Made by a program: the position numbers and the translations under genes. From Bryum argenteum (Eukaryota > Streptophyta > Bryopsida > Bryales > Bryaceae), in contig CM073321.1 in NCBI GenBank assembly GCA_037043015.1, positions 2,547,001 through 2,611,000 of the forward strand: DNA of 64,000 bases, in the 5' to 3' direction. Under the pieces are notes generated by a model. It was not told where the DNA came from, ran no database searches, and saw only the letters and a list, made by a program, of their open reading frames with translations. Shown here piece after piece: positions 28,100 through 54,514 of the stretch (positions are counted from its first letter, which is position 1; each line of letters starts with the position of its first letter).

Positions 28100-28396
28100 C
28101 TAGGCATCATAGATGTTGTTGTTTACCAAGAGAACCATGTTGTTTGGCAAGGCTAATAGCTCCCTATATGGTCCATGCCATATCGTTCCCAATTTGGATT
28201 TCCGGATTTTCGGATTTCTTGGACACCATAATACTTGATCACCCTTTTGGAATATTTGAGGGGGTTTAGAGCCTTGGAAATATTTTGCACTGAGTTCGTG
28301 TCTACGTAAGATATTCATCTTTGCATCTAACCCCGTATTTGTTATATTTGGAACATTTTTATCTCCCAAATTAAAACAAGACAACGGATGAAGCAA
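28100..28396 (-). pseudogene. Ty3 integrase C-terminal fragment
   Basis: Minus strand reads AKYFQGSKPPQIFQKGDQVL, W, then a basic stretch ending KLGTIWHGPYREL. The FxxGDxVLW...KLGxxWxGPY pattern is typical of the SH3-like C-terminal domain of Ty3 integrases. Core catalytic residues are absent. It has the same strand as the Ty3 reverse transcriptase at 44.9-46.4 kb, whose integrase is cut after the zinc-binding domain, so the two may be parts of one element split by the 28.4-44.7 kb block (inference). Confidence 0.5.
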
Positions 28397-28857
28397 AAAC
28401 CAACATTTAGAGGGGTTTCCCCGTATGCATATGTACTCGAAATTTACTAATTTCCATTATATTTGGAGATGATATGAGACCTCTTGCATCTTAGAAAATA
28501 TGTTTATCTTAGAAAACGTTTCCTACTAACACATATTTGATACGGTACATGTCAAGATTAACATACCAACAAAAAATAATTTTCTTTCAATTGATAATAA
28601 TCATGGAGTGAACTTAAACAATCTTCTTATACAAAATAAGTATATTGAATATGGATAGTAAATAGTACAAAAATATAATACTCTATATACTAAATATCAA
28701 TGTAATATATATGTCAATACCAAGTTTAAGTACTAACACACCTACTTCCACAATAAATACTATATACTAGATGACTACTCTTGAGAAGATGAAGCAAGCT
28801 CCCGTAAAGAAGCCTTGATGATTTCAACCTGCTTCTTGGGTATCGTAATAATTGGGT
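28397..28857. other. AT-rich spacer, 3' flank of the DUF7869-like gene
   Basis: AT-rich and noncoding. GGGGTTTCCCC near 28411 is a short self-complementary motif of unknown meaning. This is the most likely place for the left end of the palindrome-bearing module, but I find no terminal repeat. Confidence 0.35.
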
Positions 28858-31637
28858 CTATACCTTCACTGCTTTCTTCGTCAGAATGCGTAATTCTTGA
28901 TTTCGAAGCAGTGAAAATAGCATCTGTAGGCTGTGAACACATTCTACACCTTTCTCAACAGTCCAACGAAGCTTTCTATTTGTATCCCAATCTGTGTAAT
29001 GCTTCAGAATTTCTTTGGAGCGTGACATTGGACGGAAGAACTGAATGTCAACCGTATTGGATAGGTCTGAGTTTGAATTTGGATCAGACATTGCTCGCCC
29101 GAGCCAGAAAGGTCGACCATCGGTGCCGCATGGACGTAGTGCAACAAAATAGCCCTTATAAAGGTCACGTCCAACTCGAAATGACGATGCAGGACGATCA
29201 CGTCTCGGGCCAACAAAATGATCATCGTCGTCGTACTCTTCGCGTACATTCCCTTCTAAAGTAAACTCATCTTCCATAGCATGTGCAAGTCGAGTTGATG
29301 GCCAAAATCCATGTTGTAACGGTAATGGTTCCTCAGAACTTGACGAAATCCCATATTGCGACGATGCAAGTACATCCATGGGTATACAAAGAGCATCTTT
29401 AACGCCGCTCCAGTAATATGAGAGAGGCTCGTACAATCTCCGTGATTCAATTGACTCACGTGATAATCGTTCCCAATGATCAACAAAGCCTGAAATCCCT
29501 TTCACCACTTCAGGCAAATGGCGCATCTCGTTTGGACGCATTGCATCCGGTTCACCACGTGGCCATAAGGATCTGCCTTGGGAATCCTCCTTCCACAATT
29601 TAATTCCAGCATGATCACCTCTAGGCAGCCATTCCTTATCGTGACAAAAAATCTTATACTTCATTACGGGGCATACACTTGGATCCATGTAAAACTTGAA
29701 TTGATGCGCCTTCGTATGCCCAACCAATGCTTCATCGCCGTCTAACATCCACTCTTTAATGAACTTCTTGAAGTTCGGAACCTCTTGAACGAGGTGTGGA
29801 ATAACTGGAAGTTTCTCAATCCTCATAAAAGATTTCATGAGAAGAGGGATGGTAGGATAATCCTCCTTTTGCAACGCCATGCTCCAACGCCCAAATAACG
29901 CATCAATGTCATCATGAGTGTGACCAACGAGCATAAAATTCACATAAATCTCTCGGAATACTCGTTTTGCTACCAAAAGAGACCAGAAACTGAAGACAAA
30001 TCTATTCTTGTTATCACTCACGGCATTATCCATTTGGACATTCAAAATCGGAGGCAAAGGCTTTGCTGGAACTAGGATGTCAGGAATAGGGCCTAACGGA
30101 TCCATACACACATCTGAACCTCTTAAAAGAGCAGTATACAATGGATGCGATGGGGGCTCTGTGAAGAGTAGTCTAGATGAGGACTTAGGTGCAGCTTCCA
30201 GATCCCGCAGTAGTTTTGCAAATGAGCCGACCGTATAATTGGCATCATGTCCATAATGAGCGTATCGCTGGTCTACATGACCATGAGCGAGAATTCCCGT
30301 AACTGCAAGAGGTAACTTCATGAGTCCGTCTAAGTTCTTCACCTTATGAGACAAGGCAGGTGACGCTGTTTTCGAGTGGTCCATCTTGTCATGCATAATG
30401 GTCAAAACATCTTGAGGGGACTCCTTAGACCTGAAGCGGTTGAGGTAGTACAAGTCTCGGTGCACATATGCAGAATCTAAGTGCACATTCAACTTCCTCG
30501 ACCATATAAGAGATGGTTGTGTTCCACTAAGAGTGAGCTTCATCAGTGATTGTAACTCATCGCACTTGGAGCAACGCGCAAAATTGTCCCCCGATCTTTT
30601 GGCATAGTACTCTGGATAGCTGAGGCGGCGAATCTTACTAAGGTTTGAAGTTGACACCGGCGGAAGTCCACACTCTTCAAGGTGATGATCAAGAACTTAA
30701 AACTTGAAGGAAGTACCTTGGCAACAACCTTCTCCCCTCATGGAAGGCTCCGGGACTTGTGAGGCATGTGATCGGCATGTCTATCAAGTATTGCCCCTAA
30801 AACGGCAGAAGCAACAATCGTATGCCTCCTAGGCTTTCGCAAGCTCGTGTTCCCGTGTAACTGGGCCTCATGACCATCTGCTGCATTCTGGGCGTTGCGA
30901 TAAAACGTACCGTTGCTCACGCCCATAATTTTCATCCACGCAATTTGACAAACATCAATACCCTCTAGAGTGACCACATTTCGCCTTTCGGCGTTTCTAT
31001 GGAACTGCCTGTGGACATCGAGTTTGACATGATTCTTGAACTGCACAGATGTCTTGTCGTACATGCGACATCTGAGAACCTTAATCTTCTCCCTTGGGTA
31101 TAGTTGCACACAATTGTGCCTACAGCAGGTATTACATGCGACCGCATTGATTGACTCCGCTGTCATCAGGAACTGTGCTTTGCGCGAAACTGGAGTAGAC
31201 TCATTCCTTGAAGAATTATCATAGGATCGAGTTCGAGATGACCCCTGTCGCCGACTACGTTCCCGGACCCATCTGTTGTAAACATCTTGCTGACTATGGT
31301 CAAAAAGACTAACACCGTTAAGGAGAACTTGCTGGATGGGCCAGGACTTGAAGGAGTATATCCAGTCGTCTGGATCCTCGACCGCAACAAACAACGTTGA
31401 AACTTGCACCACAACTAGAGAATCACCAAGTAAGCCATTACAATCAGGTACAACGCCAGATCGTAGATTTCTAAGTAAATCCTCAGCGATTCTCAGTCCT
31501 TCGGAATCAAGCATTGACACAGTCCTCCCTGTCCAGAGTCGTGGAGGGACAACTTGAGCAGCAAGTAAACCAGGATTCATAGGAGCATCGACGAAAGCGT
31601 CATCGTCTGTAGAAACATCCATCCTGAAAGATGTCAT
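28858..31637 (-). pseudogene. DUF7869-like transposon protein (one stop, one frameshift)
   Basis: Two abutting minus-strand frames. The N-terminal part starts at ATG 31637 (about 300 codons) and has a Cys/His-rich stretch, CNTCCRHNCVQLYPREKIKV, then VVTLEGIDVCQIAWMKIMGV and HADHMPHKSRSLP before a TGA at 30738. Translation past the TGA continues GEKVVAKVLPSSFK, then shifts frame into the second part (to 28858): YPEYYAKRSGDNFARCSKCD, ILNVQMDNAVSDNKNRFVF and FMLVGHTHDDIDALFGRWSM. The MDN...NKNR and GHTHDDID signatures match my recollection of the DUF7869-type domain, known mainly from repeat-rich eukaryote genomes and possibly a transposase (inference). The nearest palindrome lies 71 bases upstream of the ATG. 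Confidence 0.65.
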
Positions 31638-31707
31638 CGTAAGGTTAGAAACTAATTAGACAAAAACATGGTCACAACTCCAAGACTGTATAAGAAACGA
31701 ACAAGTG

Positions 31708-32035
31708 TAGTTTAGCTCGAGTCGAGCTAAACTGACTAAGAGAAATTCTTCTACAGTTTAGCTCGAGTCGAGCTAAACTGCATCAAGTAAATTATAAATC
31801 AGTTTAGCTCGACTCGAGCTAAACTGTCTCAGGGACAGTGCCATGAAGAAGTGGAAGCATAGGTCTGCGCTTTGGATTCGCATAACACCAGGTAAACAGA
31901 ATCGCTATATACAAACTCCAGTTTAGCTCGACTCGAGCTAAACTGTTAGAACGAACGCATAGAGCAGTTTAGCTCGATTCGAGCTAAACTGTATGTCACG
32001 CATGTGTGCAGTTTAGCTCGAGTCGAGCTAAACTG
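31708..32035. promoter_or_regulatory. Palindrome cluster 1 (six 27 bp palindromes) upstream of the DUF7869-like gene
   Basis: Starts at 31708, 31754, 31800, 31919, 31965 and 32009. Each has arms CAGTTTAGCTCGA and TCGAGCTAAACTG around one central base: G, G, C, C, T, G in order. The first has T instead of C at its outer base; the rest have perfect arms. Start spacings are 46, 46, 119, 46 and 44. They lie directly upstream of the ATG at 31637, so operator-like sites or transposase binding sites are natural explanations. As RNA or extruded DNA they would form hairpins. Confidence 0.9.
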
Positions 32036-32689
32036 CATGACAAAGTACAAGATTTGTTCCGGGTATTCCGGCGTATTTTACGGATTCAATTAGAACTCAA
32101 AGTGTCCGTTGCTATCAGCGCCCTCCCATTCTATCGACACAAGCAGGAATCAAAATATACTCCTGTACCAACGTAATCGTCAAATCAAAAGAAAATGTCA
32201 ACAATAACGACTCCGAATGCATAAAGGTTAAGTACAAACTATTACAATACAACCACTGAAGAGAAATTATCAACTACTACTACTCAAGATAAGGATAAAC
32301 GTATGAAGGATAATGAAAAAAACAATGCGAGAAGCTATGCAAATCAAATTGAACGACACACAATCATGCAGAAATGAAAGCGCGAAACACGTACGCGAAG
32401 ATAGAGGTTGAGCTGAAGAAAGCGCGGAGAACTGAAATACGTCAACTGATATCAGCACACTCGGAGATTGAGAAGAAAAGAATCATTCTGTCCTGGATTT
32501 CGAAGGTCATTGCGTAGCGCAATGTCGTTTACGCGGTATTCCAGAAATAATAAATGGAAGAGAATCGACGTGTGGATAATTGAAAATTGGCGGGAACCGA
32601 AGTCTCGACAACTGAAAATGGGCGCGAACTGAAGTGTCTACAGTTAAAAATGGGCGGGAATAAAAGGGTCGACATTTGAAAATTGGCGG

Positions 32690-32750
32690 GATTGGGGTTA
32701 TAGGGTTTAGGGTTTAGGGTTCAGGGTTTAGGGTTTAGGGTTTAGGATTT
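32690..32750 (+). repeat. Interstitial telomere-like TTTAGGG run
   Basis: About seven units of TTTAGGG with one TTCAGGG variant and a GGATTT end. This is the plant-type telomere repeat. It lies at the border between the palindrome-bearing promoter region and a 4 kb AT-rich block, which could mark a repaired break or an element junction. Confidence 0.8.
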
Positions 32751-35600
32751 CTGATTACAGGAGGGTTATAATTGTTATTGGTCAAAAAGATGTTAATCTT
32801 TATACACGTAGTTTGAGGTATACTATGTTAGCAAACACTCAGTAACAAGATAAATGTTTAGTTAAACTGCTTAGAAGCAATACAATGGATTCGACTTCTA
32901 ATTATTTTATCTTTCCGAATCGAATATCCTAAACCTCAGACCTTTATTTCTAAATAAAGTTTCTATACAATATATTCGATGCAATATTTACCTTAAGGTG
33001 AAGTCTTATTAAGTATTAAGCTATTATCTTATCTATAAGTTTAATAATACTACATTTTTTTTGTGTATGCTCTTGCTAACAATTCGTTATTGAATGTTAA
33101 TTATTATACAGTTCAAATTATTTCTATCCTTTGCAATTTCTCGTTTAAAATTGCTGATTAAACATAATTTTTATTAAACTGTGTTTGCTTATTTGTATAT
33201 ATTATAATTATAAATAATGTATTAAAATATACAATATTCATTGCATATTATATTATATACTATTTATCTATAAATGAAAAATTAATCTTTGAAACTGTAA
33301 GTTCATGCAATGTCAATGCAATCTTAGTATATTGTTTAGAGTATCAAATTGTTTGAGCTATAAATAGTAGTGATAAAATCAAATATTCTTACTTTAAATT
33401 TTAAGAGATATCTTTAAACTTATGTACGATTAAAAATTTATACAATTTGATAAGTAAATTTGTAAACCCTATTAAATACACTTTGGATTATTTAATGAAA
33501 TTCATTTGGATGTACATAAAAGTTTATACTTATGTTGAATGTCAACGTATACATGCTCAATGGTATATATCTAATTTAATATTTTTGTAACATAGAGCTT
33601 ATCAAAATAAGATTAGTTCTGAATGTTTTAATTTGATTTGTAGATGTTTAACATTACAATTAAATTTCCTATTGAAATGTTCAAAATCGATTGGAAATAT
33701 GCACATTTCGCGTTTCAAAAATGCATTTCTCAAATACAACCAATACAATCATTGATCTTTAATGTTGAAATTCTATTTTGCAAATTTTAGTCAATTCTAA
33801 ATTACCTTTACCTATCGACTCCCTACGCATTTCAATGTTTTTAAGCACAGTGTATAGTGTAAGAACTATTATAAACTTTGATCCTTCCAAAGCGATCGTT
33901 ATCTAGTGATTTGCATTATATTTAAGTACAAAGCATTTTGTACGATGTCAAATATAATAGGTCATTGTACTGTATGCATAAGTCCCGAATGTTTTTTTTA
34001 TCTAATGAAATGATTTTGTGTTTGAAATGAAAAGTTTTTTTGTAGATGTTGTCTTTATACACCGTCATATACATCTGTACAGGTGATTATAAACATTACT
34101 AGCACAGTAAAGTCAGATGTTGGTATTGATTATGCACATTTAATGTACATTAATTTTGCGTTTATTCAAAAAAATGAGCAGTGTGACTATTAGAAAACAA
34201 AAAACAACAATATTTGTTGAGTCTTTTTACAAATTTCTCCTTTCAACTCATATTTTACGTGATTCAAATTATCGAGATTCACAAATGTAAGAATTAAAAT
34301 TATTATTACATTTGAACAATCTTTTTGAGTGATGAAATTTAATGTCGTATTTCTGTTTTAAATGTGACTGTTCTTTAATAATTTATTCTACTACCTTATA
34401 AATATATTGAAACGCATACAAATGAACAAAAATGGTTTTAATTAAATGAACATGCAATAACAATAAATGTACAGAAATGATCGTTGTACAGTGCAAATAA
34501 CAATGTAAGCAACTCTGTAAACTAATAGATGCTTTCATATTTTTAAATTGTAATCATAGTCATTATATTATCAAAAATATTTATTTTTTGATGTATGTAA
34601 ATTGTAAAATTCTATAGAATAGGCAATATTTATAGCTTATAGTTTAAGAAATTTATTGAATCCCTCTATGCAATAGCATGTCTTTCAATTATAGTATTAC
34701 AGTACTTAATATCCTTAACTTATATTTGACATCAAGTAAATCCAAATTTGCATTTGTGCGAACTTTCACCATTCTTCCTAGTCTTATTTATGAATCTCTT
34801 ATCCTTATCTATTAATAGAAGTATTTCTCGTTTTTTTTTAAATGTTGGTACTTCTCTTAATATAATTTTTGAATTAATAATTCCGTTATTAACTTTTGTT
34901 GCCAAATACTCTATTTATAGAAATATCAGAATTTGAAAAAATATCATATCTCTCGAGAAAAAACTTTTAAGAGAAGGGGTTTATTGAGAACTTCTTCTGA
35001 ATATATGAGTTTCTCGATGACGTAAAAAAGGGAAATGATAGATTGGGTTTAAGCTTGACGTTTTGGTGACACTAAAACAGCCATTCGAAGAATGACCAGA
35101 GATTGATTGATGGGATCACTAAGATCACTAGCCGAGAAACATGTATCTTGAGCATTTTTAACCCAATTTCTACTTCGAAGGTGAAGACAAGGAGCTAACA
35201 CTAGCCAACATTGAATCAATAGTGTATGAATTTGACTTTGAACACAGCAATAGTGATCATAAAACACCGTCAACAAACTTCAATGATCGTACCTGAATCA
35301 ACCATCCCATTTTACTACTTCAATCTGCTGATTCTTAAATAACAAATGTATTCCATATGTATTAATACTTTATTCCTAACCTTCTCTCAAATAATCAATT
35401 ATGAAATAGTAAATTTATTAATTCTAATACCCAAATAACATCTATACAAAACTATATTTATTGGATTCCTTATTTATTAATCGTTTAATGTGAATAAAAA
35501 TAATAATTTAAATTTCCAAATAATCTATTTATTGACGTATTAATTCCAAATTCTATATTCATAAGAGCATGTATTTCTTGGCGTATCAGTTCTCTAAATT

Positions 35601-35635
<35 letters not shown>

Positions 35636-36720
35636 GATGTATTAATATATTTAATAAATAGTCTAATCAATAATCCTTGATTTCTATGTGTATTCAATAA
35701 TTTTTTTAAGAACAGTTATCTTTCAAAATACTGTATTTATAAGATACTTTATCTTCTGGTGACAAGTTTATTATATGTAATTTGTTTTATTTAATTATTT
35801 ACATTAACATATTTATGAAAAGTCCATAAAATATCCATAGATTCACAAATTTAATGTGTATTATATTATCTCTTCATCCAAATTTATATTTTCCAATAAA
35901 ATATTCATTAAAGATACTGTTTATTAACGAGTTATACCAAAATAACTTATTTACCAATAATTTTGATTTTTTTTTTTTTTTTTTTTTTTTTGTGACATAT
36001 AGAAGACTATAGTGTTATGACTATAGTGATCATTTTGATTCCTAATTTTTTTAAAAATCACATCAGTTTACTATTTGCAAGTCTTGCCTTTCGATAGGAA
36101 TCCCATAGATCTTTTCATACTTCACCGCCATGTGACTAGAGTACAAGAAAAATATTCACGTCTTTGAGTTCTTAGCATATGTACTTACGGTTATATATAT
36201 TTCTACCAACAAACTATTTTTTGTACTTGTAAATAATCATCATCTTAAGTTGTACATACTTTAGAAGTAGACAAATTAATATTTATAAGACAATATGTGG
36301 TACAAATATTTTTCTATTCGTTATACTGAAGATGATCAAAAAATACACAGTAGTTAGAAAGCCAACAACCTCATATATAGAATTTGTTTTACTCTAAATT
36401 GGTTTTTCATGGAGGTATTTTGCACGGGATAAAGATTAAACATGATAGATTTTTTTTTACAAAAGATAGGGAACAATGTACTCTATACGTATCGTGTTTG
36501 AACCTAAGAATTCGAAGTTCTTTACTGTACTAAATTTAGTCAAAATTTTGTTAAAAAACTTCCACTAAAATCCTTGTCATTTACTTAGTGAAAATTGGGA
36601 CAAAATTTGGACATAGTCAAATCTAAGTCAAAACTTAGCCAAGAATTAGTAAAAAAAAAAAATATTCAAAACATAGTTAAACTGTAACAAAATTGCGAAA
36701 AATAAATAATAAATTAATTA
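32751..36720. other. AT-rich noncoding block
   Basis: About 4 kb of very AT-rich sequence without credible coding frames on either strand. It holds a (TA)n microsatellite at about 35605-35632, a long poly-T tract near 35966-35992, and a purine run near 36650. Composition is unlike the flanking coding parts of the module. No repeat unit was recognised. Confidence 0.6.
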
Positions 36721-36727
36721 TTTTGTC

Positions 36728-36830
36728 ATGCCCATGATCATGTGCATGGGCATGGTCATGTACATGGTCATGCATGTATGTATGCATGACCATGTGCATG
36801 GCCATGTCCATGCACATCATTATACGCATG
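36728..36830. repeat. CATG-rich degenerate palindromic repeat
   Basis: Around fifteen CATG tetramers in about 100 bases, in units such as CATGYNCATG and GCATGACCATGTGCATGGCC. Because CATG is self-complementary the whole stretch is quasi-palindromic. Confidence 0.7.
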
Positions 36831-36839
36831 AAAAAGTTC

Positions 36840-37510
36840 TGGTGATGGGATTGGACGTCCCACCACCGCCGCCTTCTCCACGGAGGTCACATCCCACCCC
36901 CCTCACTTAGCCCACTTACCTGCGAGTGCGAGGGTCCCGTCCCCCTCACTTACCTGCCATTACGAGCAGGTTCTCCATTCGTTGTCTTCCTCGTTTCCCT
37001 GCTCAGCTGCGCTCCTCCTTTTCTCCAGCCGTTGTCTTCCTCGTTTGCCCTGCTTAGCTGCGCTCCCTCTTTTCCGGCGTTGTTCTGCTTTTCTGCAGTC
37101 TGCGCTCCTCCTTTTCCGGCGTTGTTCGCTTTTCTGCGGTCTGCGCTCCTGCTTTTCCGGCGTTGTCCTGCTTTTCTGCGGTCTCCTTCTGCTGGTTTTG
37201 CTGCGCTTATTTCCTCGGAGTGAGCGCCTGTGTCTGGCACTTGTCCTCTTGCGCGAGTCATCGGGGTTTTGTCGTTTTCATTGTAATTGTCGACGAGGAG
37301 GATCGGAGAGTTTTGGCGCCATTTCGCGCTGGGCACTGCGAGGTGGAGTTCTTCCCCGGAATTAGTTCGTGGAGAGCGGCAGTGCTGTTGCGAGTTCGCG
37401 GAGGTCGGCGGTGCTGCTGCGATTTCGCTCGGCGGCGCAGGTGCTGCTGCGAGTTTGATTGGCAGCGGTTTTCTGCTTCTGCTCTGCTACTGCATCTTAA
37501 AGGTTAGTAA
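36840..37510 (+). promoter_or_regulatory. GC-rich island with about 41 bp tandem repeat
   Basis: A sharp switch from AT-rich to GC-rich sequence. TTTTCCGGCGTTGT recurs at 37070, 37112 and 37153 in units of about 41 bases, preceded by two older GTTGTCTTCCTCGTTT units. Long open frames exist on both strands but are biased by the repeat. CTTAAAG|GTTAGTAAT near 37503 resembles a splice donor, so this could be a promoter and leader exon for the rightward gene at 39619, but that is speculative. Confidence 0.35.
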
Positions 37511-37576
37511 TGCTTTGCGCGTAGTTTAGGGTTTAGCGTAGTTTATTTTGTTTCAAGGCCCGTCTTCGTCATTTTC

Positions 37577-38056
37577 GAGCTCGTAGTTTCATTTTCGGTG
37601 GGGGGGAGCGGTCCGCTCCTTTGTGGGTGTGCACTGGTCCCACGCGACCTTGATTTTGCCGAGGACGCGCTCCTGTCCTTCGCTGGTCGGGACCCGGAGT
37701 CGGCGACGTTAGTATGAATCAATTAGAGTGCTTAAAGTCTGAATACATTAGCAAGGAATAACGCGCCAGGTGTCTTTGCATTTTGTGTTGGTCTTCGGAA
37801 TGTTAGTCTTCGGAATGTGTTGGTGCAATTCTTGGATTTTTGAAAGACGAACTTCTGCGAAAGCATTTGCCGATGATGTTTTCATTAATAAAGAACGAAA
37901 GTAGGGGGCTCGAAGACGATCAGATACCGTCCTGGTCGCAACCATAAACGATGCCGACTAGGGTTTCGGGGGTGTTGATTTGAAGACCCCGCCAGCACCT
38001 TATGAGAAATCAAAGTTTCTGGATTCCGGGGAGAGTATGGTCGCAAGTCTGAAACC

Positions 38057-38090
<34 letters not shown>
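37577..38090 (+). rRNA. 18S rRNA gene fragment (degenerate)
   Basis: Nuclear small-subunit rRNA sequence in sense orientation, truncated at both ends. Diagnostic conserved stretches in order: GAGCTCGTAGTTTC (37577), GAGCGGTCCGCTCC, GTGTGCACTGG, ATTAGAGTGCTTAAAG, AATTCTTGGATTTTTGAAAG, ACGAACTTCTGCGAAAGCAT, GGGGGCTCGAAGACGATCAG, CATAAACGATGCCGACTAGG, CACCTTATGAGAAATCAAAG, AGTATGGTCGCAAG, GGAATTGACGGAAGGGCACC and ACCAGGAGTG (ending 38090). This is roughly the central quarter of the gene. Substitutions at normally invariant sites (for example GAAGGG context kept but AAGTAGGGGG for AAGTTGGGGG) and the truncation mark it as a pseudogene fragment. Confidence 0.9.
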
Positions 38091-38820
38091 AGATTGTAGA
38101 TAGCTTCAATACTTCCTTGATTGACGAAATTTGTGAACTCTTACTTCTGAGAGTTAGGCTAGGAATAACAATTGCGCACTTGAAGTTAGAATTTGCAGTA
38201 ACTTGTATTTGAATTGCTTGTAGAAAATCTTGCGGGAGATATAGTCGGTGAAATCGGTTTCGAGATTCAATTGCTGGAACGTCGAGATAGTCGTATTTGG
38301 AGAAGAATATCGAGGTAAAGTGACAGAAACGTTTGTGTATGAGTCCGTCAAACTGGACTTCATTTTTCAGCTTTGATTTTTCGTAATTTTCTATTGCCGC
38401 TTTCATTGTTGTGCATTGTTCTTAGCACTTCATTTCAAGATTCAATGGTGATGCTTAGGCTCAAGCTCGTACATGTTTGAATTTCACGTAAGGTGCAGCA
38501 TGTTATGCTGGATTGCTTAATTTTGTTAAAAGAATGCCTACGCTTCCGCTTCGATGAAAGTATCATTAACATCTGATTCCAATTCCATATGTATTCATAG
38601 AACTCTGAATATTACACCACAAATGCTTCCAAGCAAACGTAGTTCCTCACTCACCTCCCTAATCCATGACCAATTGCATTCTTCTGCAGGGCAAGCCCAA
38701 GCGGAGTGCATCACAGAAGTCTATCCCAGAATATACAAAATCAATGGCAGACAGGTGATAATCATCAACAACAAAAATCCACTAACTCGCATGCAATATG
38801 CCCCTACATGGACGCGGCTA
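38091..38820. other. Stretch between 18S fragment and palindromes, possible leader exon
   Basis: Mostly noncoding. A CTTCTGCAG acceptor-like site near 38689 precedes GGCAAGCCCAAGCGG and a short open stretch including ECITEVYPRIYKINGRQVII. No family recognised. Confidence 0.3.
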
Positions 38821-39529
38821 CAGTTTAGCTCGAGTCGAGCTAAACTGTAGTGGAAAAGAGCCTCTACAGTTTAGCTCGACTCGAGCTAAACTGCGGAAAA
38901 AACTGTTAACTACAGTTTAGCTCGAGTCGAGCTAAACTGTAGTTGGCACGTTACTCTACAGTTTAGCTCGACTCGAGCTAAACTGTAGCTGGCACCAGCC
39001 TCTACAGTTTAGCTCGAGTCGAGCTAAACTGCTGCAATTGTAAACAGTCGATAGGTATTTGATAACGCAAAAATTAGATATGGGTATACGGTACCAAAAT
39101 GAATGAACACTAAAAATAACAAAAACAACAATTCAATATAGCAGACAGAAATCCGTAAAACTGTTTAGCTCGACTCGAGCTAAACTGAAGCATGCACCAG
39201 CCTCTACAGTTTAGCTCGAGTCGAGCTAAACTGTTGTAGCTGTTAACAATTGGTAGTTATTTAATAACGTAGAAAATAGATATGGGTATAAAGTTCGACA
39301 TACCAACATGTAAGAACTAAAACTAACAAGACAAAATTCAATTTAGGAGACAGACATCCGTCAACAGTTTAGCTCGACTCGAGCTAAACTGAAGGTGGCA
39401 TAAGCCTCTACAGTTTAGCTCGAGTCGAGCTAAACTGAAGCTGGTCCCAGCCTCTCCAGTTTGGCTCGACTCGAGCTAAACTGTTGCTGGCACCAGCCTC
39501 AACAGTTTAGCTCGAGTCGAGCTAAACTG
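38821..39529. promoter_or_regulatory. Palindrome cluster 2 (eleven 27 bp palindromes) upstream of the ParB-like/methyltransferase-like gene
   Basis: Starts at 38821, 38867, 38913, 38959, 39005, then 39161, 39207, then 39365, 39411, 39457, 39503. Spacing within each run is exactly 46 bases, and the central base alternates G, C, G, C, G; C, G; C, G, C, G without exception. Spacers are 19 bases and related (TAGCTGGCACCAGCCTCTA type). A higher-order duplication of about 203 bases (39005-39207 and 39207-39411) carries the longer spacers. Only 39161 and 39457 have single mismatches. The last palindrome ends 90 bases before the ATG at 39619. Confidence 0.95.
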
Positions 39530-41156
39530 TTGCAAGTAGTCAGTCAAAGTTTTCTAGCTATATGGACATGAAAACGTAATGTTCAGCTCAGTACAAGTAC
39601 TGAAAAGAACTATAATCTATGCTTCATGGCATTCCATCAACTAATTCAATGTCCATTCACAGTCAGGAAAAGGCACGAGTTCAGGAGGCGCTCCAACACT
39701 TCTTCAAGCTTAGGCCATCGGATATTGACGAGGACGATGGCGACGACACGAAGCAGTTGGACTGCTGGGAATTCAAGGACCCATCAAAAGTTGTGTCCTG
39801 GTCGGCCAGATGGATTCCGTATACAGCATTCCTTACACTCGTCGTGACCTACGAAGGAAATGTAGAAGACCCCATTTCCATCGACATGGATTCCAAGCTC
39901 ACGGACTTCGATCACGAAACGGAGAAAGAAATCATTGCTACATTAACAACCTTCAAGGAGAAGGACAAGGAGCAAGCATACAACTACACCATTCTGATCG
40001 ATATCAAGCAGACTGGTTTTGACTTGGGCCAGTTAGTAGAGAGTTTAGAGCCGTCCAGTTTCGACGAAATCAAAACCACACTGAAACAGGATATGCTTAT
40101 GAAAGCATGGCACACCAAACAGGGGGGAAGATCTGAAGGCCAAGCAGCTCGCCATCAAACTGCGATCCGTAGTCTCTGCTCTCACACACGCTGACATTAC
40201 GGCAAAGACTATACACCTGAAATGGAAAGCGCCACTGGAGGGATCTGGGCTGACTGCAACCGGGAGCGGCGTACAGAGCAGGACCCCAACGCGCCCGCAA
40301 CGTGCAACTAGGCCCATACAAACAACCACCACGACTACAGACTCGCCTCTAATAAGGAGAGAAGCTCCCGTGAAGAAGTCGACCGAGGCGAAGAAGAAAA
40401 AGAACATGCTCATCCCCGAGGAGGATGCTCTAACGGCTTTGAACGATGCTATTAAATGCATTCCAAAGAACGTTAATACCGTGGAGGAGATCGACTTCGA
40501 GAACGTCAACCTAATGTATCAGAAGTTCTTCACGGACTGTCAGGACTGTTTCGTATTTCTGAAACCTGACACAAAGATAGAGGTCGACTTGATGAGGATG
40601 ATCGAGTCCCCTCCCGAATAGACCATTCGGGCTTTCGAGAAGAAGGGCAAAACAGACTTCATGAATCATCTCATCAATATGCCTGACAGGTCGCAGAAGC
40701 AAACGCTCTTCGTCATGCCGAAACTGGATGTGAAGCCGAACGGCCTGGAAGATATGCAGGACTCCGAGTTCTGGATTATCAACGACCAACACAGCGTTGC
40801 CGCCTCGAAGCAGATGCTTGAGTCCAAAGTCCCTGAAACGATTCGCAAAGACTTCCGGGTATGGTCAGCTTTCGTAGTTTGGACAAAGGATGAAGCCAAG
40901 CTCCGCAAGATATCGGCGTTTTATAACAGAGTGAACCACTTCACTCCATTTAAGCCGACATGGGCATCGAACATCCTTGCCGCCCGCACTGTGTGGGAGA
41001 ACTACGGGCGCCCAGCGAACAGACATGCAGCAGCTGGGGTGGCGGATAAGCGCGTGCAAACAAAGCGAGTTGTGTCACAATTCGCAAATTTTGACGTAAG
41101 TGGTACCTCATGTCGCATCACACCTATTTTCTATCATAGCAAATTGTTCCCCGTAA

Positions 41157-41381
41157 CAGTTTCGCTAGGGTCGAGCTAAACTGTCGTTACAGTTTAGCTT
41201 GAGTCGAGCTAAACTGTCATTGCAGTTTAGGTCGTGTCGAGCTAAACAACAAAGACAGTTTAGCTCGAGTCGAGCTAAACTGTCATTGCAGTTTAGCTTG
41301 AGTCGAGCTAAACTGTCATTGCAGTTTAGGTCGTGTCGAGCTAAACTGCAATGACAGTTCAGCTCGACTCGAGCTAAACTC
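41157..41381. promoter_or_regulatory. Palindrome cluster 3: seven 27 bp palindromes on a 33 bp register inside intron 1
   Basis: Starts at 41157, 41190, 41223, 41256, 41289, 41322 and 41355, exactly 33 bases apart, with 6 base spacers (TCATTG, CAAAGA, CAATGA types). Only 41256 is perfect; 41190 and 41289 carry CTTGAG, and 41223 and 41322 carry GGTCGTG, suggesting a 66-base dimer was duplicated. All lie within the 397-base intron 41096-41492. Confidence 0.9.
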
Positions 41382-42892
41382 TCGTTTCTGCTTAATAAAC
41401 TAAAAATATTTACAGCTATTGAATTCCATATGCACGCGAAAGAAAAAGCTTCCGCTCTCTTCCACTCTGACATCTTACTTGTGGCATTGCAGAAATTCGT
41501 GGACTCCATTCGACATAGGTTCGCCATGATTGATGTTGCCAAGGCCCAAAGAGAGGTGAAGCACAAGGTCTTGTCCCTTACGAATGAGCTGAAGATTATC
41601 ACCTTTCCTGAAGATCTCTGGAACCTGTGGGCAGAGTTGATTGGAAGTGTCGCCCAGGGCACCCTTATCGACCCCTACTCTTTGAGGCAGTTGTGTGACA
41701 AGCCAGGGTTTAAACCAGACAGCGATCAAACCTTGTCGAGGGAATTTTTTAAGAACCTCGGTAACCTTTCGGAGTCAGACCATAGAAAACTCTGTTCACA
41801 TATGTTGAATAGGTCAGGTCCGTCACGGAAACTGGAATACCCGAAGGTTACTCTCAAACAACCGGTAACCCTTCTTGAAGATTGCTACTCCGTGAAGGAG
41901 TACGTTGAACGGTTGAAGCGTAAGGCAACCGCCCAGCTTCAGATCCACAAGATCAGACCTGAACTGGGAATCTTCAAGAACAACGAGTTCGACGTGGTTG
42001 CGTGGAAGAAATTCAAGAAAGACTTCCACGTCACGAAGGCCTCAAAGCGCGCACTCCTGGAATGGGGGATACCTGATAAGTACTACGCAGACCAAAGGCA
42101 AACCCAGCACAGGAACACCAGCTGCGAAGATCTCTCTCCCTAAGCGAAGAGGTTCTTCGAGGTGTTTCTGGAGAAGCGCGAAAAGTTTACTGGCCCTGTT
42201 GGTACTCTCATATTCCGTTCCTTCGAGCGCAAAACACCACAGAGGCTGAAAGATTGGCCTGAGAACAAATGGCCAGAACCTGCACCCGAGATGAACGTCG
42301 GAATCATCGACTTCAGATTGGTTCCGGGTAGTTGTAGTTCCTCAGCTGATTCCTCGCCTGATCACCCATTCTTCGAAATGTTCATGGCGATCCTGTCGTC
42401 CCAGAACAAGCCAGCTCTGAAAGATGTTCCCTGCTGGTAATTTATTTGCAGGGGTGAGAGTGAATATGCGCAAGTTGAGGCGTTCGCGACCAATCCTGAA
42501 TTCTTCCCAGGGAATTATAAGCTGATCCCGATGTACTATCCATCCCCGCACAAACGGCTCGCTGGATACAATGCGAAAGCGAAGCAAGCCTCAGAGCTTG
42601 TGCGTCTTCTCTTCATGATCAGGGGAAACGTGAACCTCGCGCGTATGCCTCAGGCCGAGTACCGCGCTCCAAAGCACGCGCTTTACGAGAAGCCACGGAA
42701 ATACAACGAGTCACGGTACCACATGTACCCGATCGAGTTACGGATGGATTTCTATTTGCAGGTCATCCAGCTATTCTGTCAAGAGCAAGAGAACATCTTT
42801 CTTGTCTACGCCGGCGAGAAAGCAGTCTGCGCAAGCATGGTAAGCTTCGCAGTAGTAAAACCCGATTATCTTTGCTCGCATAGGAACCCCTA

Positions 42893-42919
42893 CAGTTTAG
42901 CTCGACTTGAGCTAAACCG
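42893..42919. promoter_or_regulatory. Single degenerate palindrome in intron 2
   Basis: CAGTTTAGCTCGA, C, then TTGAGCTAAACCG: two mismatches to the arm. It lies in the 157-base intron 42840-42996. Confidence 0.8.
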
Positions 42920-43926
42920 TCTAGCTTGTTCCCAAACCATTTCCGCTTTACTTACAGATGATTTCAGTTCTTGATGCTGCACTGTTTTCGTTGTAGATGT
43001 TGTCTCTCGACGCCTATGCTATATTCGACGCCGAAGATAGAGAGGACATCGACCAGGCGTACGATGAAGGGCTTACTCTTGATCCTACTGACTTCTCTGT
43101 GAACGGGTATTTCGTCGACAAAGTCGAGTTCCCGGAGGTTGGAGCCATGCTCTTGAAAGGCAAGCGCAAAGCTGTTGCGTCTTTGGATGACGAGGCCCTC
43201 GACAATGAGGCGGACGTCCCCGACCAGGAGGACTCTGGGTCAAGTGGAAGGCAACTTCACGGTGAAGGCAGCACTTACAGCCTTGGTTCCGGAGGGGATG
43301 ACGAAGAGCATTTCATGGAAATCGACACGACCCCTCGGACACCGCAGGAGTCGCGTACCGCTCCCGGGCGAGGAGGAGGCAGAGGGAGTGCAAAGCGGAA
43401 ACGTAATCCCCTGTCGAGGGACTCACCCTCAAGTAGGTTCAAGGCCGAGGAGAGTGCTGAATTGGCAGCACTACAGCGCAAGGTTGAGGAGGAGATGGCA
43501 CACCGGAAAGAGTTGGAAGAGCTCCTTAAACAACAGAATATTGAGCAGCGAGAACGCGAAAAGAGGGAACAGGAACGCCATGACAGGTTGATGGAGATGA
43601 TGGAGAGTTTAACTGCCGGCCACGCATTAGCTCTGGCGAAGACAAAGGCCACCACTGCTACCCGTGCTGATCCTGCATCCCTGCAACCACTTCCGTCTCT
43701 GCCGCCTCCAACTACCGAGCCTTTCGCACCTACGCCTTCCTCTCCTATACCTGAAAGAGGACCAGTGGGTGACGAAGAAGAAGAATCTCCAGGTCCTCCT
43801 TCAACTTAGATTTTGGATCGAGTGTATAGTATTTAAGCTGTAAATGCCGGGAAACACATATACATGTGAAATTTTGTATCAAACTCAGACATTTTTTTGT
43901 AATTAATACAGGCCTTTACTATTCTG

Positions 43927-43953
43927 CAGTTTAGCTTGACTCGAGCTAAAATG
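43927..43953. promoter_or_regulatory. Single degenerate palindrome downstream of the gene
   Basis: CAGTTTAGCTTGA, C, then TCGAGCTAAAATG, two mismatches. It lies 118 bases after the stop codon and is the rightmost member, so it may lie near the module's right end. Confidence 0.8.
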
Positions 43954-44045
43954 TTGCCCTTTTTCCTATCTGCTTCTTGATGGCTCCCGTATTCTATATC
44001 CTCCATCTTATTGTTTCCTGATTCCATGAATTTGTATTGCTTGCC

Positions 44046-44660
44046 AGATGTTAATTTGGATGACGAAGCAATCGATGTTCCAGTCATGGATGATGTCACG
44101 CTTGAATGTTATCACCATGAGCGGGTTCCATGGGTGGAGGACACACTCAAATTGCATGATGTCTCACATACACAGAATGTTGTTGCTGTCCGTGATGAGA
44201 TAGATTGCACTGAGCAGTCACTCGGGTCAATGGGTGTCCAAGTTGACTTAGAGGAGAGCAATTATGATAATCGGGTATTTTCTGTTCCACAAACACTGCT
44301 CTCACCCATGCCTTCGTTGCGATGTGTTTTATGGTTCTGACCTTGAATTCATCGCACCAGTGACGAAAGCTCCCCAGTAATTTTGTCGTGGTGCGCCGTT
44401 TTCATTTCAGGTCAACGAAGCATCGGTCAATGATTTAATTTCTAGAGAAGACATAGGTGGGGTTCCAAGCAAATCCTCCGGTACTTGGTTAAATGTTGTT
44501 CTCGACCTCAATGGTATCCTCTGCAGTTGTTCCCCATTTTGGGAAGCTAAAGGATACAGAAATCGTGACTTCCGTATTCACTCAGCCACGTTGCCAACCG
44601 AGGTGGGGAAGAAGCTTGTATGGGTGAGGCCCAACTGTAAGGACTTCCTCTCTCGGGGGT
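44046..44660 (+). pseudogene. FCP1/NIF-like phosphatase domain fragment
   Basis: An acceptor-like GCTTGCCAG at about 44045 precedes an acidic exon (DVNLDDEAIDVPVMDDVTLE). After a second acceptor (TTTCATTTCAG, about 44410) comes GTWLNVVLDLNGILCSCSPF, WEAKGYRNRDFRIHS and GKKLVWVRPNCKDFLSR. The VVLDLNGILC plus VRPNCKDFL pattern matches the N-terminal half of HAD-type FCP1 phosphatase domains, with Asn in place of the usual second catalytic Asp. Similarity stops at about 44655, where retrotransposon sequence from the opposite strand begins. It is truncated and probably nonfunctional. Confidence 0.5.
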
Positions 44661-44880
44661 TTTGGGTTAAGGAACCAATCAGGTCTAAACTCTTGCGTTC
44701 CCTGATCCGGTACACTAGACCGTGTTGGTCGTTGTAGCGTCAACCCGGTGATCAATCCGGATCTCGTCTTGTCTTCACACTTCACAGAATCTCCGTGGAA
44801 TGTTACCCGGAAGGTGGACCATCTTGCTAGGTTGTAAGGGTAAATTGAGTTAATTTTGGTCTCCTCGGTTCGGTAACTCA

Positions 44881-46374
44881 CGATTTGGCAAGCGTGGCAA
44901 TTTTTTATATATGCGACTACATCCTTGTGTACTGTGGGCCACCAATATTTGGCAACAAGTATCTTCTTAACCGTAGTATCAAGTCCTTGGTGTCCGCCTG
45001 CGGGGCCAGCGTGGAGGCTAGGGATGATTTGTTGTTGCTCCTTTGTGGGTACACAGAGTCTGATCTCGAAATGGGCTCCTTTTTTATACAGTCTACTGTC
45101 AACCACGGTGTATGGCAACATAGTTCGCATGAAGTTGATTTTTTGTGTGTCCGCTAGTCCTCTTAGAATGATGCCCTGAACAAAGTAGGCCATGATATCC
45201 TGTCTCCAATCGTTTTGGGTTCTCATGGTGGCGATGCTGGCTTCCAGCGAGGCAGCTTGGATATAGGGTTCATTAAAAGAATCGTCTATGTCATCCTCAA
45301 TGGTATTGGTATCCCTGGATAGGTAATCTGCCACTATGTGCCTCTTCCCTGGTACAAAGACTACCTCAAAGTCATATTCCATGAGAATCATGATCCACCA
45401 AGCTACACGTCCGGTGATCAATGGTTGGTTCACTAAGAAAGATAAGCTATGGTGGTCAACCATGAAACGAAACTTGTTTCCTAGCGAGTAATGCCGAAAT
45501 TTCTTGACCGCGTAGACCATGGCTAGTGCTTCTCTTTCTTTGGTTGAGTGGTTGCATTCAGCCTGGTTCAGCAATCTGCTAGCGTAAGCCACCGATTGAT
45601 CGTGTTTGCCGTTGACGTTTTGTGCTAACATGACTCCAACGGCAATCTTGGAGGCATTTGTGTGGATGTGGAATGGCTTGGCCCAATTTGGGGCAAGTAG
45701 TATCGGGGCTTCTGAATAAGCCTGATTGATTTTGTCTAGAGCGTTTTGCGCGGCCGGTGTCCAATCCCTTGGGTATGAATATCCTACATGATTTAGGGCC
45801 GCTATCGGGGCAGTGAGATGTGTTAGCTTCTCGATGTACATCGTGTTGAATTGCGAAATGCCAAGCAGCCCTTGGACATCCTTTTGATCTGTGGGTGGGG
45901 TCATGTTAAAAATATCTTGGATCTTGGATGGGTCTAGGAGTTTCCCATACTTGCAAAAAATATATCCCAAAATGACCTCGGCGAAAAAGAAGAACATGCA
46001 TTTCTCTGCATTCAAACTTACTCCGTTTTCCCGGTAGGCCTCAAAAATTTGTCGTAACTGGCCAACATGGTCTTGCATATGGCCGTATACGGTTCCATCA
46101 TCTAGATAGATACAGAAGAACTTCTTCAAATATGGGCGAAAAATCACTTTCATGACGCGTTGAAATGTCCTGGTTGCATTTTTAGCCCCAAATTACATTC
46201 TTCCGAATTTAAGGGCCTCCACTCCGTAGAAAAAGCGGTTTTGTTCTTGTCTTGCTTTGCCATGGCCACTTGGTAGTACCCTGACAAACAGTCTAGGAAA
46301 GAGTACATTTCATGTCTAGCTACCTCATCAATAATTTCCTCCATGTAAGGTAAAGGATAGTAATCCTTTTTAGT
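44881..46374 (-). pseudogene. Ty3 retrotransposon polyprotein, 3' part of RT, RNase H and integrase zinc domain
   Basis: Minus strand. Reverse transcriptase palm from 46374: PLPYMEEIIDEVARHEMYSF, a frameshift near 46200, then FFCIYLDDGTVYGHM with the YLDD catalytic motif. RNase H: NKFRFMVDHHSLSFLVNQPL with VAYASRLLNQAE before it. Integrase zinc domain: LHAGPAGGHQGLD, YWWPTVHKDVVAYIKNCHAC. Similarity ends at about 44700-44880, before the integrase core. The 5' part lies at 61419-61789 beyond the giant MULE. The order RT, RNase H, integrase identifies Ty3. Nonfunctional because of the insertion, frameshift and stops. Confidence 0.9.
46365..46374. repeat. Left target site duplication of copy B (CCTTTTTAGT)
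   Basis: The 10 bases recur at 61409-61418. Reading the retrotransposon across a single copy gives an uninterrupted frame and a canonical RT motif order over the junction, which confirms the insertion point. Because of neighbouring C residues the length could be 9. MULE insertions typically duplicate 9-11 bases. Confidence 0.9.
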
Positions 46375-46420
46375 GGACGTTGTTAGCGTGTGAGCGTTGA
46401 GCGGTGAGCGGTGAGCAGTA
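46375..46420. repeat. Left terminal inverted repeat of copy B
   Basis: After a diverged outer 13 bases it reads GTGTGAGCGTTGAGCGGTGA with GCGGTGAGCAGTAAG following, mirroring the right end. Further in, CCGTGGATTTAG near 46548 matches the reverse complement of right-end subterminal sequence, so similarity extends beyond the core repeat. Confidence 0.8.
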
Positions 46421-48289
46421 AGATTTCAAAATTTTTAGGGCTCACTTTAAATTTTCAGTAAATAAATTTCTTAAAATAGTTTAATATTTTGTATTAGGGA
46501 ATAATTTCCAAATATTCTTGAGAATATTCGAATATTATTGACTTATTACCGTGGATTTAGTGACCCAAACCCGTGGAAATAAGGCTTAAGTTCCCTCAAT
46601 GTGGTTGGACTTGAGCTACAAAACTCGACAGTAAATTACAATTTGTAAATGTTAAGAGGTTTCTAAGGTAATATTTCTAAGTGATTAGTACTCCAAGTTA
46701 GAAACATTGGCAAGGTTTACCGTACATGTAGGTACTGGTATAATTATTTTTAATAAATTGTGAAAAAATATGACATACAGTGTGGAGCATCCAATAATAG
46801 GACTAATATATAGCGTATATAGATGAGGAGATTAAAGGCATTCTAGTCTGTAGCATGGTTTAGGATTCCTCCCTCCAGAATCTTCTTCACCTCATTGAAA
46901 CTAAGAGTGGCCGCTTGAATGAAGAGGTCGGCATCCGCATCAAATTTGCAAACCAATACTGTCATAAAGTATAGGTGCTTGCACGGTCGATATGGATCTC
47001 TCCGTCCTAACGCAAAAATTGTTTTCTAGAACGCTGGGCATGAGCAATCCGGGAATTTACTAGTTGAAAATCTATAAACTGCCTCCAAATCCGACTCCAA
47101 GTCTACGATACACCCAAAACCAGGCTGCGGGATCATGGTCACCTTCAGAATTCTAGCTTGCATTGAGGTGGCAGACTCAATATTCTTCATGTGCTTTGAA
47201 GTCATAGCTGGAATGCGTTTCATGTTCATCGATCTTCTTGACCTAGGGAACACGTCCGGCTTCTCCGGGACTGGAATATGCCTCAAGTCACTTCGTGGGC
47301 CAGCATTATTGAAAGTGCGGTTCATAGGAAGCTGTTCTTTTTGTGATAGTCAAAATCATGCCTTCTCTAATGCCTCCATTCATCACGTATAAGGTTAGTT
47401 CCTATCTTAACAGGCAATATTGAAGGAATAGGGGGTCTTTCCTGACTTAGAGAGAATGGCTCAATCCACTTGCGACGATGACCCTTCACACACCTTTGTA
47501 TATCATCCGCCCAAAAAAAGAACTGATCAATTCTTTTTTGAACCTTCTTGAGGGCGCTAACATACTCCGGTGTAAGTTGGAGCTGCGGTCGCCTTCCCCT
47601 TCTGAATAATACGTGAGTCACATCTATTTTTACTCTTTTGCATGATACTCCAACAAGCCTTGGCTGAATTCTCCCTCAAACGGGCAATGTGCCACAACCT
47701 CTTGTCTACTTTAGTCTCCTAAACAGCGGTCACACGTTCAATACTAGGTTCAGCAAAAGTGGATGGTAATGTCAGTGGCTCCTCAACTTCAACTTCTTTG
47801 TGGATAGTACTCAAAATTTCAGCACAAGCTCGGGTAACCCTTCTCCCAATTCGAGGACGTAAGTAGCTCACGGTGTCAGGTCTGTGCGTATCATCAACAG
47901 TTCCAATTGGAACATCAGCCTTACGTTTCTTGGATCCGAACACCTCCGCCCCCTCAAGGTGGGCGTCGCGGGAACATATCTTTTCAGCTCCTGTTTAGTC
48001 CGGAACTGCCTTTATGAGGCCTGATAGATCGCCGGTTCGTTGAGCTTTATGGGCAACACGAAGTAATAGTTCTTCGGATGTTGGTCCACTACCACCCTTG
48101 CCACCTCTATTGAAGTCGTGGTAACCCACAACTTGTAGGAAAGCACGAACATAATCATCAACAGCTGCAACGTACAAGTCCCCACCCTTGTTGCCGGACG
48201 CTTGCAACCATTTGTTATGGATAGATTCCGCAAGGTTACATGAAGACATCTCCGCCAGCTCCTCTTCAGAATATTTATTTTCCTGCAAG

Positions 48290-54052: not shown

Positions 54053-54514
54053 ATGGACAAAACCGCTAGCAGTAGTGAGAGAGGAAAGGAAATAGGTCAG
54101 AAAAAGAAGAAGCGGAGGGGTTGTATGATGTTCACTAATTCTGAAGCACTGAAGCGTAGTGCTTTGCGGAAGCAGGATGGGACAAGCTCTAGCGGCTATG
54201 ATCGGGAGCCTGACGGGTACAATATATTGATAGACGATGATGTGCTACTGCCATTTTGGCGGACTCTTAAGATGCAAACGCTTAACCTCCACTGTGTTCC
54301 GGAGTGTGTCGGGACGGACGAAGTTGAAGAAGAGAAGAAGGAAGGACGTAAAAGGCAGTTCAGGACGTCTAGTGAGAATGCTTGCGTGTACAGGAATGAC
54401 GATGGAGGTTCAACAGTTTGTTACAATGATTTGAATTTCCTCCCTTCAAGCTTGCGGCTGCGAATCATCAAGCCTGCGCGACAATTGTCTAGATTTTCGA
54501 TGAGCCCTCGGTGA
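54053..54514 (+). CDS. Exon 1 of small basic MULE cargo protein, copy B
   Basis: ATG at 54053: MDKTASSSERGKEIGQKKKKRRG, then SEALKRSALRKQDGTSSSGY, DREPDGYNILIDDDVLLPF and an acidic stretch ending about codon 125. Colinear with 523-921 in copy A. From about 54430 the frame runs into satellite sequence, so the C-terminus is not original. KKKKRR suggests nuclear localisation. The later exons seen in copy A (997-1257, 6984-7303) have no counterpart here. Confidence 0.55.
   Translation: MDKTASSSERGKEIGQKKKKRRGCMMFTNSEALKRSALRKQDGTSSSGYDREPDGYNILIDDDVLLPFWRTLKMQTLNLHCVPECVGTDEVEEEKKEGRKRQFRTSSENACVYRNDDGGSTVCYNDLNFLPSSLRLRIIKPARQLSRFSMSPR

Follow-up and report, generated by a model that had tools for sequence, protein, structure and literature searches.

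Many short repeats within a DNA transposon are familiar from En/Spm and Ac, where subterminal repeats are bound by the transposase (TNPA in En/Spm); classical transposase repeats of this kind lie close to the element ends. Internal motifs are found in the VANDAL elements of Arabidopsis. VANC proteins have an anti-silencing role for these elements, which encode them: they recognise the motif and take away DNA methylation. The VANC21 motifs form tandem repeats in the introns of VANC21 and VANB21 and upstream of VANA21 (PMC5735166), and VANC motifs diverge quickly between families (PMC5735166, PMC10398659).

The palindromes analyzed in this study were found in the moss Bryum argenteum, in a stretch of 64,000 nucleotides called here the window. 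They are part of a large moss jumping gene and not a stand-alone satellite: in the copies read they form small, gene-linked transposon clusters instead of the long stand-alone tandem arrays of satellite DNA. As in the VANC system, arrays of the motif occupy predicted introns of the element's own genes and regions upstream of them (stations A-E, Table 1). The motif does not, however, differ between related families as VANC motifs do, the same word being present in three families of the element and in other mosses.

Palindrome stations and their link to the element genes

The array described in the earlier note, 11 palindromes in a 46-bp register with alternating G and C centres, is borne out. 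The region contains exactly 11 sites of the form CAGTTTAGCTCGA-N-TCGAGCTAAACTG, nine of them perfect and two with one mismatch (39161 and 39457). The intervals are, in order, 46, 46, 46, 46, 156, 46, 158, 46, 46 and 46 bp, that is, 46 bp in eight of ten cases, and the centres read G C G C G C G C G C G, alternating without exception. At equal base frequencies, a 64-kb stretch should contain only about 0.001 perfect odd palindromes with 13-bp arms, whatever their sequence, so that chance can be neglected as the origin of the array.

Fifteen more sites, absent from the earlier list, bring the window's element to 26 at up to five mismatches. All belong to five fixed non-coding stations, named A-E, whose introns are predicted from splice motifs and reading frames (Table 1). 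The stations were found at matching places in every copy where the sequence covered them, including distant copies. Nine further palindrome clusters on contig C1 (E1-E9) were compared with the window copy (W), and the ten copies, several of them covered in part only, contain 308 sites at up to five mismatches (W 26, E8 34, E6 37, E1 13, E3 31, E4 8, E2 22, E5 53, E7 51, E9 33).

Table 1. Features of the element copy in the window (positions are those of the window)
Feature	Positions	Strand	Remarks
Transposon copy, right part missing	28329..44657	.	left boundary 28328/9 common with E1, E6 and E8; alignment lost at 44657
Left TIR (AACCCC...)	28329..28348	+	base 28328 is flank
DUF7869 gene, probable transposase	28858..31637	-	ORFs 28858-30657 and 30738-31637
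Station A, 6 sites	31708..32035	.	5' side of DUF7869 gene, beyond splice-acceptor-like TTTCAG; predicted intron
Small upstream exon, ParB-like gene	38690..38754	+	predicted from splice motifs and frame joining next exon
Station B (reported array), 11 sites	38821..39529	.	predicted intron 38755-39662
ParB-like exon b	39663..41095	+	frame change between 40103 and 40194; in-frame stop 40619-40621
Station C, 7 sites, 33-bp period	41157..41381	.	predicted intron 41096-41492
ParB-like exon c	41493..42839	+	
Station D, one site, 2 mismatches	42893..42919	.	predicted intron 42840-42996
ParB-like exon d	42997..43809	+	open to stop 43807-43809
Station E, one site, 2 mismatches	43927..43953	.	before NIF phosphatase exons
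NIF/FCP1 phosphatase exons	44048..44657	+	cut off at 44657

The whole assembly (258.8 Mb, 25 contigs) was scanned for the palindrome, as the earlier note had proposed. The exact 27-mer occurs at 1323 places, and at 5032 with up to three mismatches, while the same pattern read backwards occurs at none. The shorter 23-mer GTTTAGCTCGA-N-TCGAGCTAAAC was found exactly at 2295 places with a G or C centre and at 590 with an A or T centre; its control was likewise found nowhere in the assembly.

The suspected link between the sites and the neighboring genes holds. The ParB-like gene was matched in all 13 clusters fetched for their palindromes (W, E1-E9, L059, L060 and L064), all located within roughly the first 2.6 Mb of C1; at least three other places listed there were left out (C1:1306052, to the left of the fetched part of E4, 1972447 and 2031349). 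Three other clusters, L061-L063, were picked by exon b and hence provide no independent test. The DUF7869 gene was also matched in seven of the ten copies (W, E1, E2, E5, E6, E7 and E8); the sequence of E4 and E9 stopped short of that region, and in E3 the region was compared and gave no match.

Ends, distribution and coding content of the element

The element is a DNA transposon of mosses, about 16-21 kb long, with terminal inverted repeats (TIRs), as follows from the 20-bp inverted repeats and the 4-bp target duplications at its ends. The TIR AACCCCATATTCGTTATATT (20 bp) is present with at most two substitutions at both ends of 12 out of 12 copies, all chosen as TIR pairs except that E6 and E8 were included as such. 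An exact 4-bp target-site duplication (TSD) accompanies ten of these 12 full-length copies, namely eight of ten short-range end pairs (E1 being one) together with E8 and E6, and is missing from the other two. E3, E4, E6 and E8 share the same right end, and related copies continue to the right TIR. The window copy breaks off beside a Gypsy-type remnant, at a point where E1, E3, E4, E6 and E8 run on. This retroelement remnant (44582-46425, minus strand), at the broken right side, contains RVT_1, RT_RNaseH and Integrase_H2C2 domains.

Copies of the element were found on C1, C3, C4, C5, C7, C8 and C10. The sequence TAACCCCATATTCGTTATATT occurs genome-wide, at up to one mismatch, at 70 + 86 places, and its control at none. 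Contig C1, with 44.1 of the 258.8 Mb, contains 38 of the 50 exact TIR places; of 153 candidate matches to exon b, 40 were scored, and 27 of these are on C1. Further, 12 of the 16 named ParB-like homologues of Ceratodon bear UG or VG locus tags, which we take to denote the U and V sex chromosomes. Given these tags and the concentration of the element on C1, this contig may be a sex chromosome.

The DUF7869 protein is probably the transposase. Full-length homologues are single proteins of about 945 aa, the modelled core resembles DDE transposases and integrases in topology, and there are invariant aspartates. Pfam searches of element pieces matched DUF7869 and NIF, and no MULE family was matched in the pieces scanned; DUF7869 is named in no paper of the literature searched. 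The second gene is called ParB-like after a motif only, the box INGQHSVAASK, which resembles the ParB/DGQHR box. No ParB family was found among the Pfam matches of 18 homologues at E ≤ 1 or the NCBIfam matches of two, and the predicted structure (mean pLDDT 37.8) is unusable. For the phosphatase part, PF03031 (NIF) was matched in copy E4 (E 8.1e-14), is precomputed for ten of the 18 ParB-like homologues and was obtained for 15 of the 18 with hmmscan at E ≤ 1. In the Ceratodon annotation the ParB-like part and the NIF/FCP1 phosphatase form one protein. In the window copy the start of the ParB-like gene was not found, and exon b is broken by a frame change and an in-frame stop. Among the protein matches listed (the best 120 of 259 in one search and, for the ParB-like protein, all 18, of which 17 are named), the named relatives belong to the mosses Ceratodon purpureus and Physcomitrium patens, in keeping with a moss genome.

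Several other sequences lie within the element or elsewhere in the window. A 447-nt fragment of eukaryotic 18S rRNA (RF01960, 167.6 bits; 37578-38024, plus strand) is located between stations A and B; it is also present in E3 (80% identity), with no match in the other eight fetched copies. A plant-type telomere-like run (GGGTTTA) lies inside the element at 32695-32750, runs of at least three perfect units being found in E1, E3, E6 and E8 and, on the opposite strand, in E5 and E7; plant-type TTTAGGG repeats are present. Finally, the window contains minisatellites at 54413-55879 (periods of 168, 333 and 499 bp) and 5162-6211 (302 and 335 bp).

Spacing, centres and linkers of the arrays

As general rules, the strict alternation and the 46-bp register fail in most relatives. 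In the seven close copies the spacings are 46 bp (60 times), 33 bp (16), 45 bp (10) and others, and the centres G80 C89 T2; in the three distant copies they are 55 bp (18), 59 bp (17), 57 bp (12) and others, with the centres of the same tabulation A32 C33 G42 T30. Selection for phased protein binding had been suggested from the regularity of the array. The sites do look selected, and binding by a protein is their best reading; the phasing is unsupported, because the spacings of different stations and families (33, 35, 45-46, 51-52 and 55-59 bp) share no common helical phase.

Alternation is a real tendency, strongest in the window's own subgroup, and no rule. Counting only G/C neighbors in the station B arrays of the ten copies, there are 63 switches against 32 repeats (binomial p 0.002, under an assumption of independence that duplication violates); when all stations of the seven close copies are taken together, at distances of 40-52 bp, 50 switches stand against 30 repeats. 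It is strict in the window and E2, while E6 is mostly non-alternating, and close copies on C4, C8 and C5, with 11, 13 and 12 sites respectively (up to six mismatches), have other centre orders.

The alternating centres had been read as successive sites inverted relative to each other, possibly added by a mechanism that supplies inverted units. The linkers of the window do not support this. These 19-bp sequences (stations A and B, 31 pairs) match one another directly, with a mean identity of 0.57 versus 0.35 for the reverse complement, and the array itself contains a direct duplication (84% identity over 283 aligned bp, at a 202-bp shift). The linkers of E3, E4 and E6 are direct as in the window, those of E2 and E8 differ little between the two comparisons, and those of E1 slightly favour the reverse complement (0.60 direct versus 0.65, six pairs). 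Inversions do occur within the element family: in E8, part of the array reads, by eye, as an inverted half-array in which centres and linkers flip together. A given linker is, moreover, not tied to one pair of centres, which again speaks against inverted units in the window: TAGTTGGCACGTTACTCTA stands between a G and a C site in the window and E3 and between two C sites in L061, the second of which has three mismatches. Since the exchange of G and C at the centre outweighs, in close copies, the transitions that point mutation would favour, we infer that the centre base flips within intact arms. The 46-bp register and the alternation are best explained as by-products of the duplication of one- and two-site units, centre flips and some inversions.

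Conservation of the word and its possible roles

The most conserved part of the site is the inner word TTTAGCTCGA-N-TCGAGCTAAA. Of 174 sites in the seven close copies, 158-174 retain any given arm position, and of 146 sites in the three distant ones, 139-146; the next base on either side is retained in 158-159 and 124-129 sites, respectively. These figures are inflated by the selection of sites at up to five or six mismatches. Further out the distant group relaxes, and the flanks vary; the centre of the distant copies is free (A35 C35 G46 T30 across the 146 sites). Station E allows a comparison that avoids the mismatch limit: between six close copies and the distant E5 the site is 90% identical and its flanks 62%, although the conservation of a neighboring stretch of the same width (95%) matches that of the site. 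A block with TTTTTTTGTAATTAATACAGG just upstream of station E (about 43870-43912), past the ParB-like stop, is conserved like the palindrome when close copies are compared with distant ones.

The word is also kept at matching introns, with a 35-bp period, in a third family (L059, L060 and L064), although the exon c protein of L059 and L060 is only 29.9-30.7% identical to that of E4. Outside Bryum, the contig L065 (CADCWO010000071.1), the only match among prokaryotic genome contigs, carries a moss-type DUF7869 gene (69.9% identical to P0001, in a frame of 963 codons) with sites on its upstream side at 4191 (perfect), 3816 (one mismatch) and 4271 (four mismatches). It is filed under a cyanobacterial MAG though the transposon is of moss type, probably through misbinning. 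Further, the palindrome is read through as amino acids in four of 138 retrieved proteins (0.13 expected per shuffle, none among the reversed proteins), cases known from the protein sequences alone. The positions match the stations, namely A in P0039, B in P0131 (Ceratodon), C in P0138 and D in P0136 (Ceratodon); the last was first seen by eye and the pattern widened to hold it, so that three of 138 are left without it. As judged from these comparisons, the word is kept in other mosses while centre, linkers and spacing drift, which fits a symmetric protein-binding site under selection. Among changes in the arms, transitions affect 44 of 696 cells at the four CpG positions versus 22 of 2784 at other inner positions (transversions, 8 and 32 respectively), an excess that would be consistent with past methylation of the sites.

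On balance, and with somewhat more belief than doubt, we suggest that the palindrome serves as a cis-acting recognition site, which selection has kept at the five non-coding stations, and that, bound by a dimer, it marks the regulatory segments of the element against silencing. A homodimeric protein, either the element's own or recruited from the host, would bind each 21-23-bp site through half-sites of 10-11 bp around one free base; the two-fold symmetry, the free centre, the fixed half-sites and the free flanks point to such binding. Clusters of sites would mark regulatory segments, allowing the element genes to escape or resist silencing by DNA methylation, a role favoured because the positions of the sites reproduce the layout of the VANC21 motifs. 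We take the arrays to expand and contract through tandem duplication of units of one or two sites, which produces the local registers of 46, 33, 35 and 55/59 bp, and the free centre base to switch within intact arms.

The main rivals are binding by the transposase and an action of the sites as RNA. According to the former, the DUF7869 protein itself binds the palindromes as internal sites, which serve as an enhancer or for autoregulation in transposition and are not anti-silencing marks. In its favour, seven of ten copies (those covered) and another species have a station upstream of the DUF7869 gene. However, the two full copies that were read throughout, E8 and E6, have no repeats in the few hundred bp next to their ends, and the nearest site is about 2.5 kb from either; the TIR does not contain the word, and the richest arrays are often in the second (ParB-like/NIF) gene. 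We regard binding by the transposase as unlikely.

An RNA role, by which neighboring sites pair into long intron hairpins that feed small-RNA pathways or affect splicing, is distinctly improbable. Stations B-D do lie in predicted introns, and the RNA fold predicted for the array's first five sites, with neighboring sites paired into stems of about 30 bp, reaches -153.3 kcal/mol, where 200 shuffles average -65; so stable a fold follows from the self-complementarity of the sites. In the close copies, however, one-sided arm changes outnumber compensated ones by 164 to 4, so that the letters and not the base pairing are kept. The same is seen between families, where the fixed letters and not the pairing are conserved, and isolated single sites are kept as well (station E, and D in some copies).

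It is also distinctly improbable that the transposon lineage has a partition- or clustering-like system of its own, in which the ParB-like/NIF protein (or the DUF7869 protein) loads at the intron palindromes, spreads, gathers copies and displaces silent chromatin. If true, this would be a eukaryotic counterpart of ParB-parS that is at the same time an anti-silencing mark, its word having stayed frozen throughout deep moss evolution.

Functionless tandem repeats, that is, hairpin-prone DNA expanded by slippage and homogenised within and between copies, would account for arrays that clearly expand and duplicate and for station E, whose site shows no clear excess of conservation over its flanks among close copies alone (0.943 versus 0.933). 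They would hardly account for the retention of the same letters at matching stations, in other mosses and in a family whose protein is about 30% identical, next to linkers and a centre that drift, and we consider this explanation very improbable. Finally, an independent micro-element inserting into introns of the transposon, to which the high copy number and the non-coding positions might point, is scarcely credible, as all 13 clusters chosen by palindrome lie in ParB-like elements and the stations keep matching places in distant copies.

We now compare the dimer-bound, anti-silencing site that we favour, and the element carrying it, with the known systems. With DDE/D transposases and retroviral integrases the element appears to share the modelled topology of the DUF7869 core and the invariant aspartates; the TIR and a TSD fixed at 4 bp are further common features. 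The moss sites differ from the repeats of En/Spm TNPA and Ac by their position inside introns and upstream regions of genes, at least about 2.5 kb away from the element ends. Like bacterial ParB-parS, the element has clustered palindromic sites beside a gene with a ParB-resembling box, although here in a eukaryotic transposon and with no match to a ParB family in the homologues searched.

In the VANC/VANDAL (MULE) system too, a short motif is repeated densely inside the element, in introns and upstream regions, and its tandem repeats expand and contract (PMC5735166, PMC10398659). The genes of the moss element, DUF7869 and ParB-like/NIF, appear to differ from those of VANDAL elements. The VANC21 motif is the 9-base YAGTATTAY, arrayed in a single orientation, and other motifs occur in the targets of VANC6, whereas the moss word is a 21-23-bp palindrome common to three families and other mosses. 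A word so frozen suggests a slowly evolving reader, unlike VANC; it counts against a VANC-like scheme and in favour of a reader conserved in the host, or of a different role. Near letter-perfect in a selfish element whose proteins are about 30% identical, it would need a reader that hardly changes, and it offers a functional entry point to DUF7869, a domain of unknown function. Identifying the reader would reveal by what means a large transposon of a plant stays expressed, and whether it relies on a conserved host protein or on a fast arms race as described for VANC.
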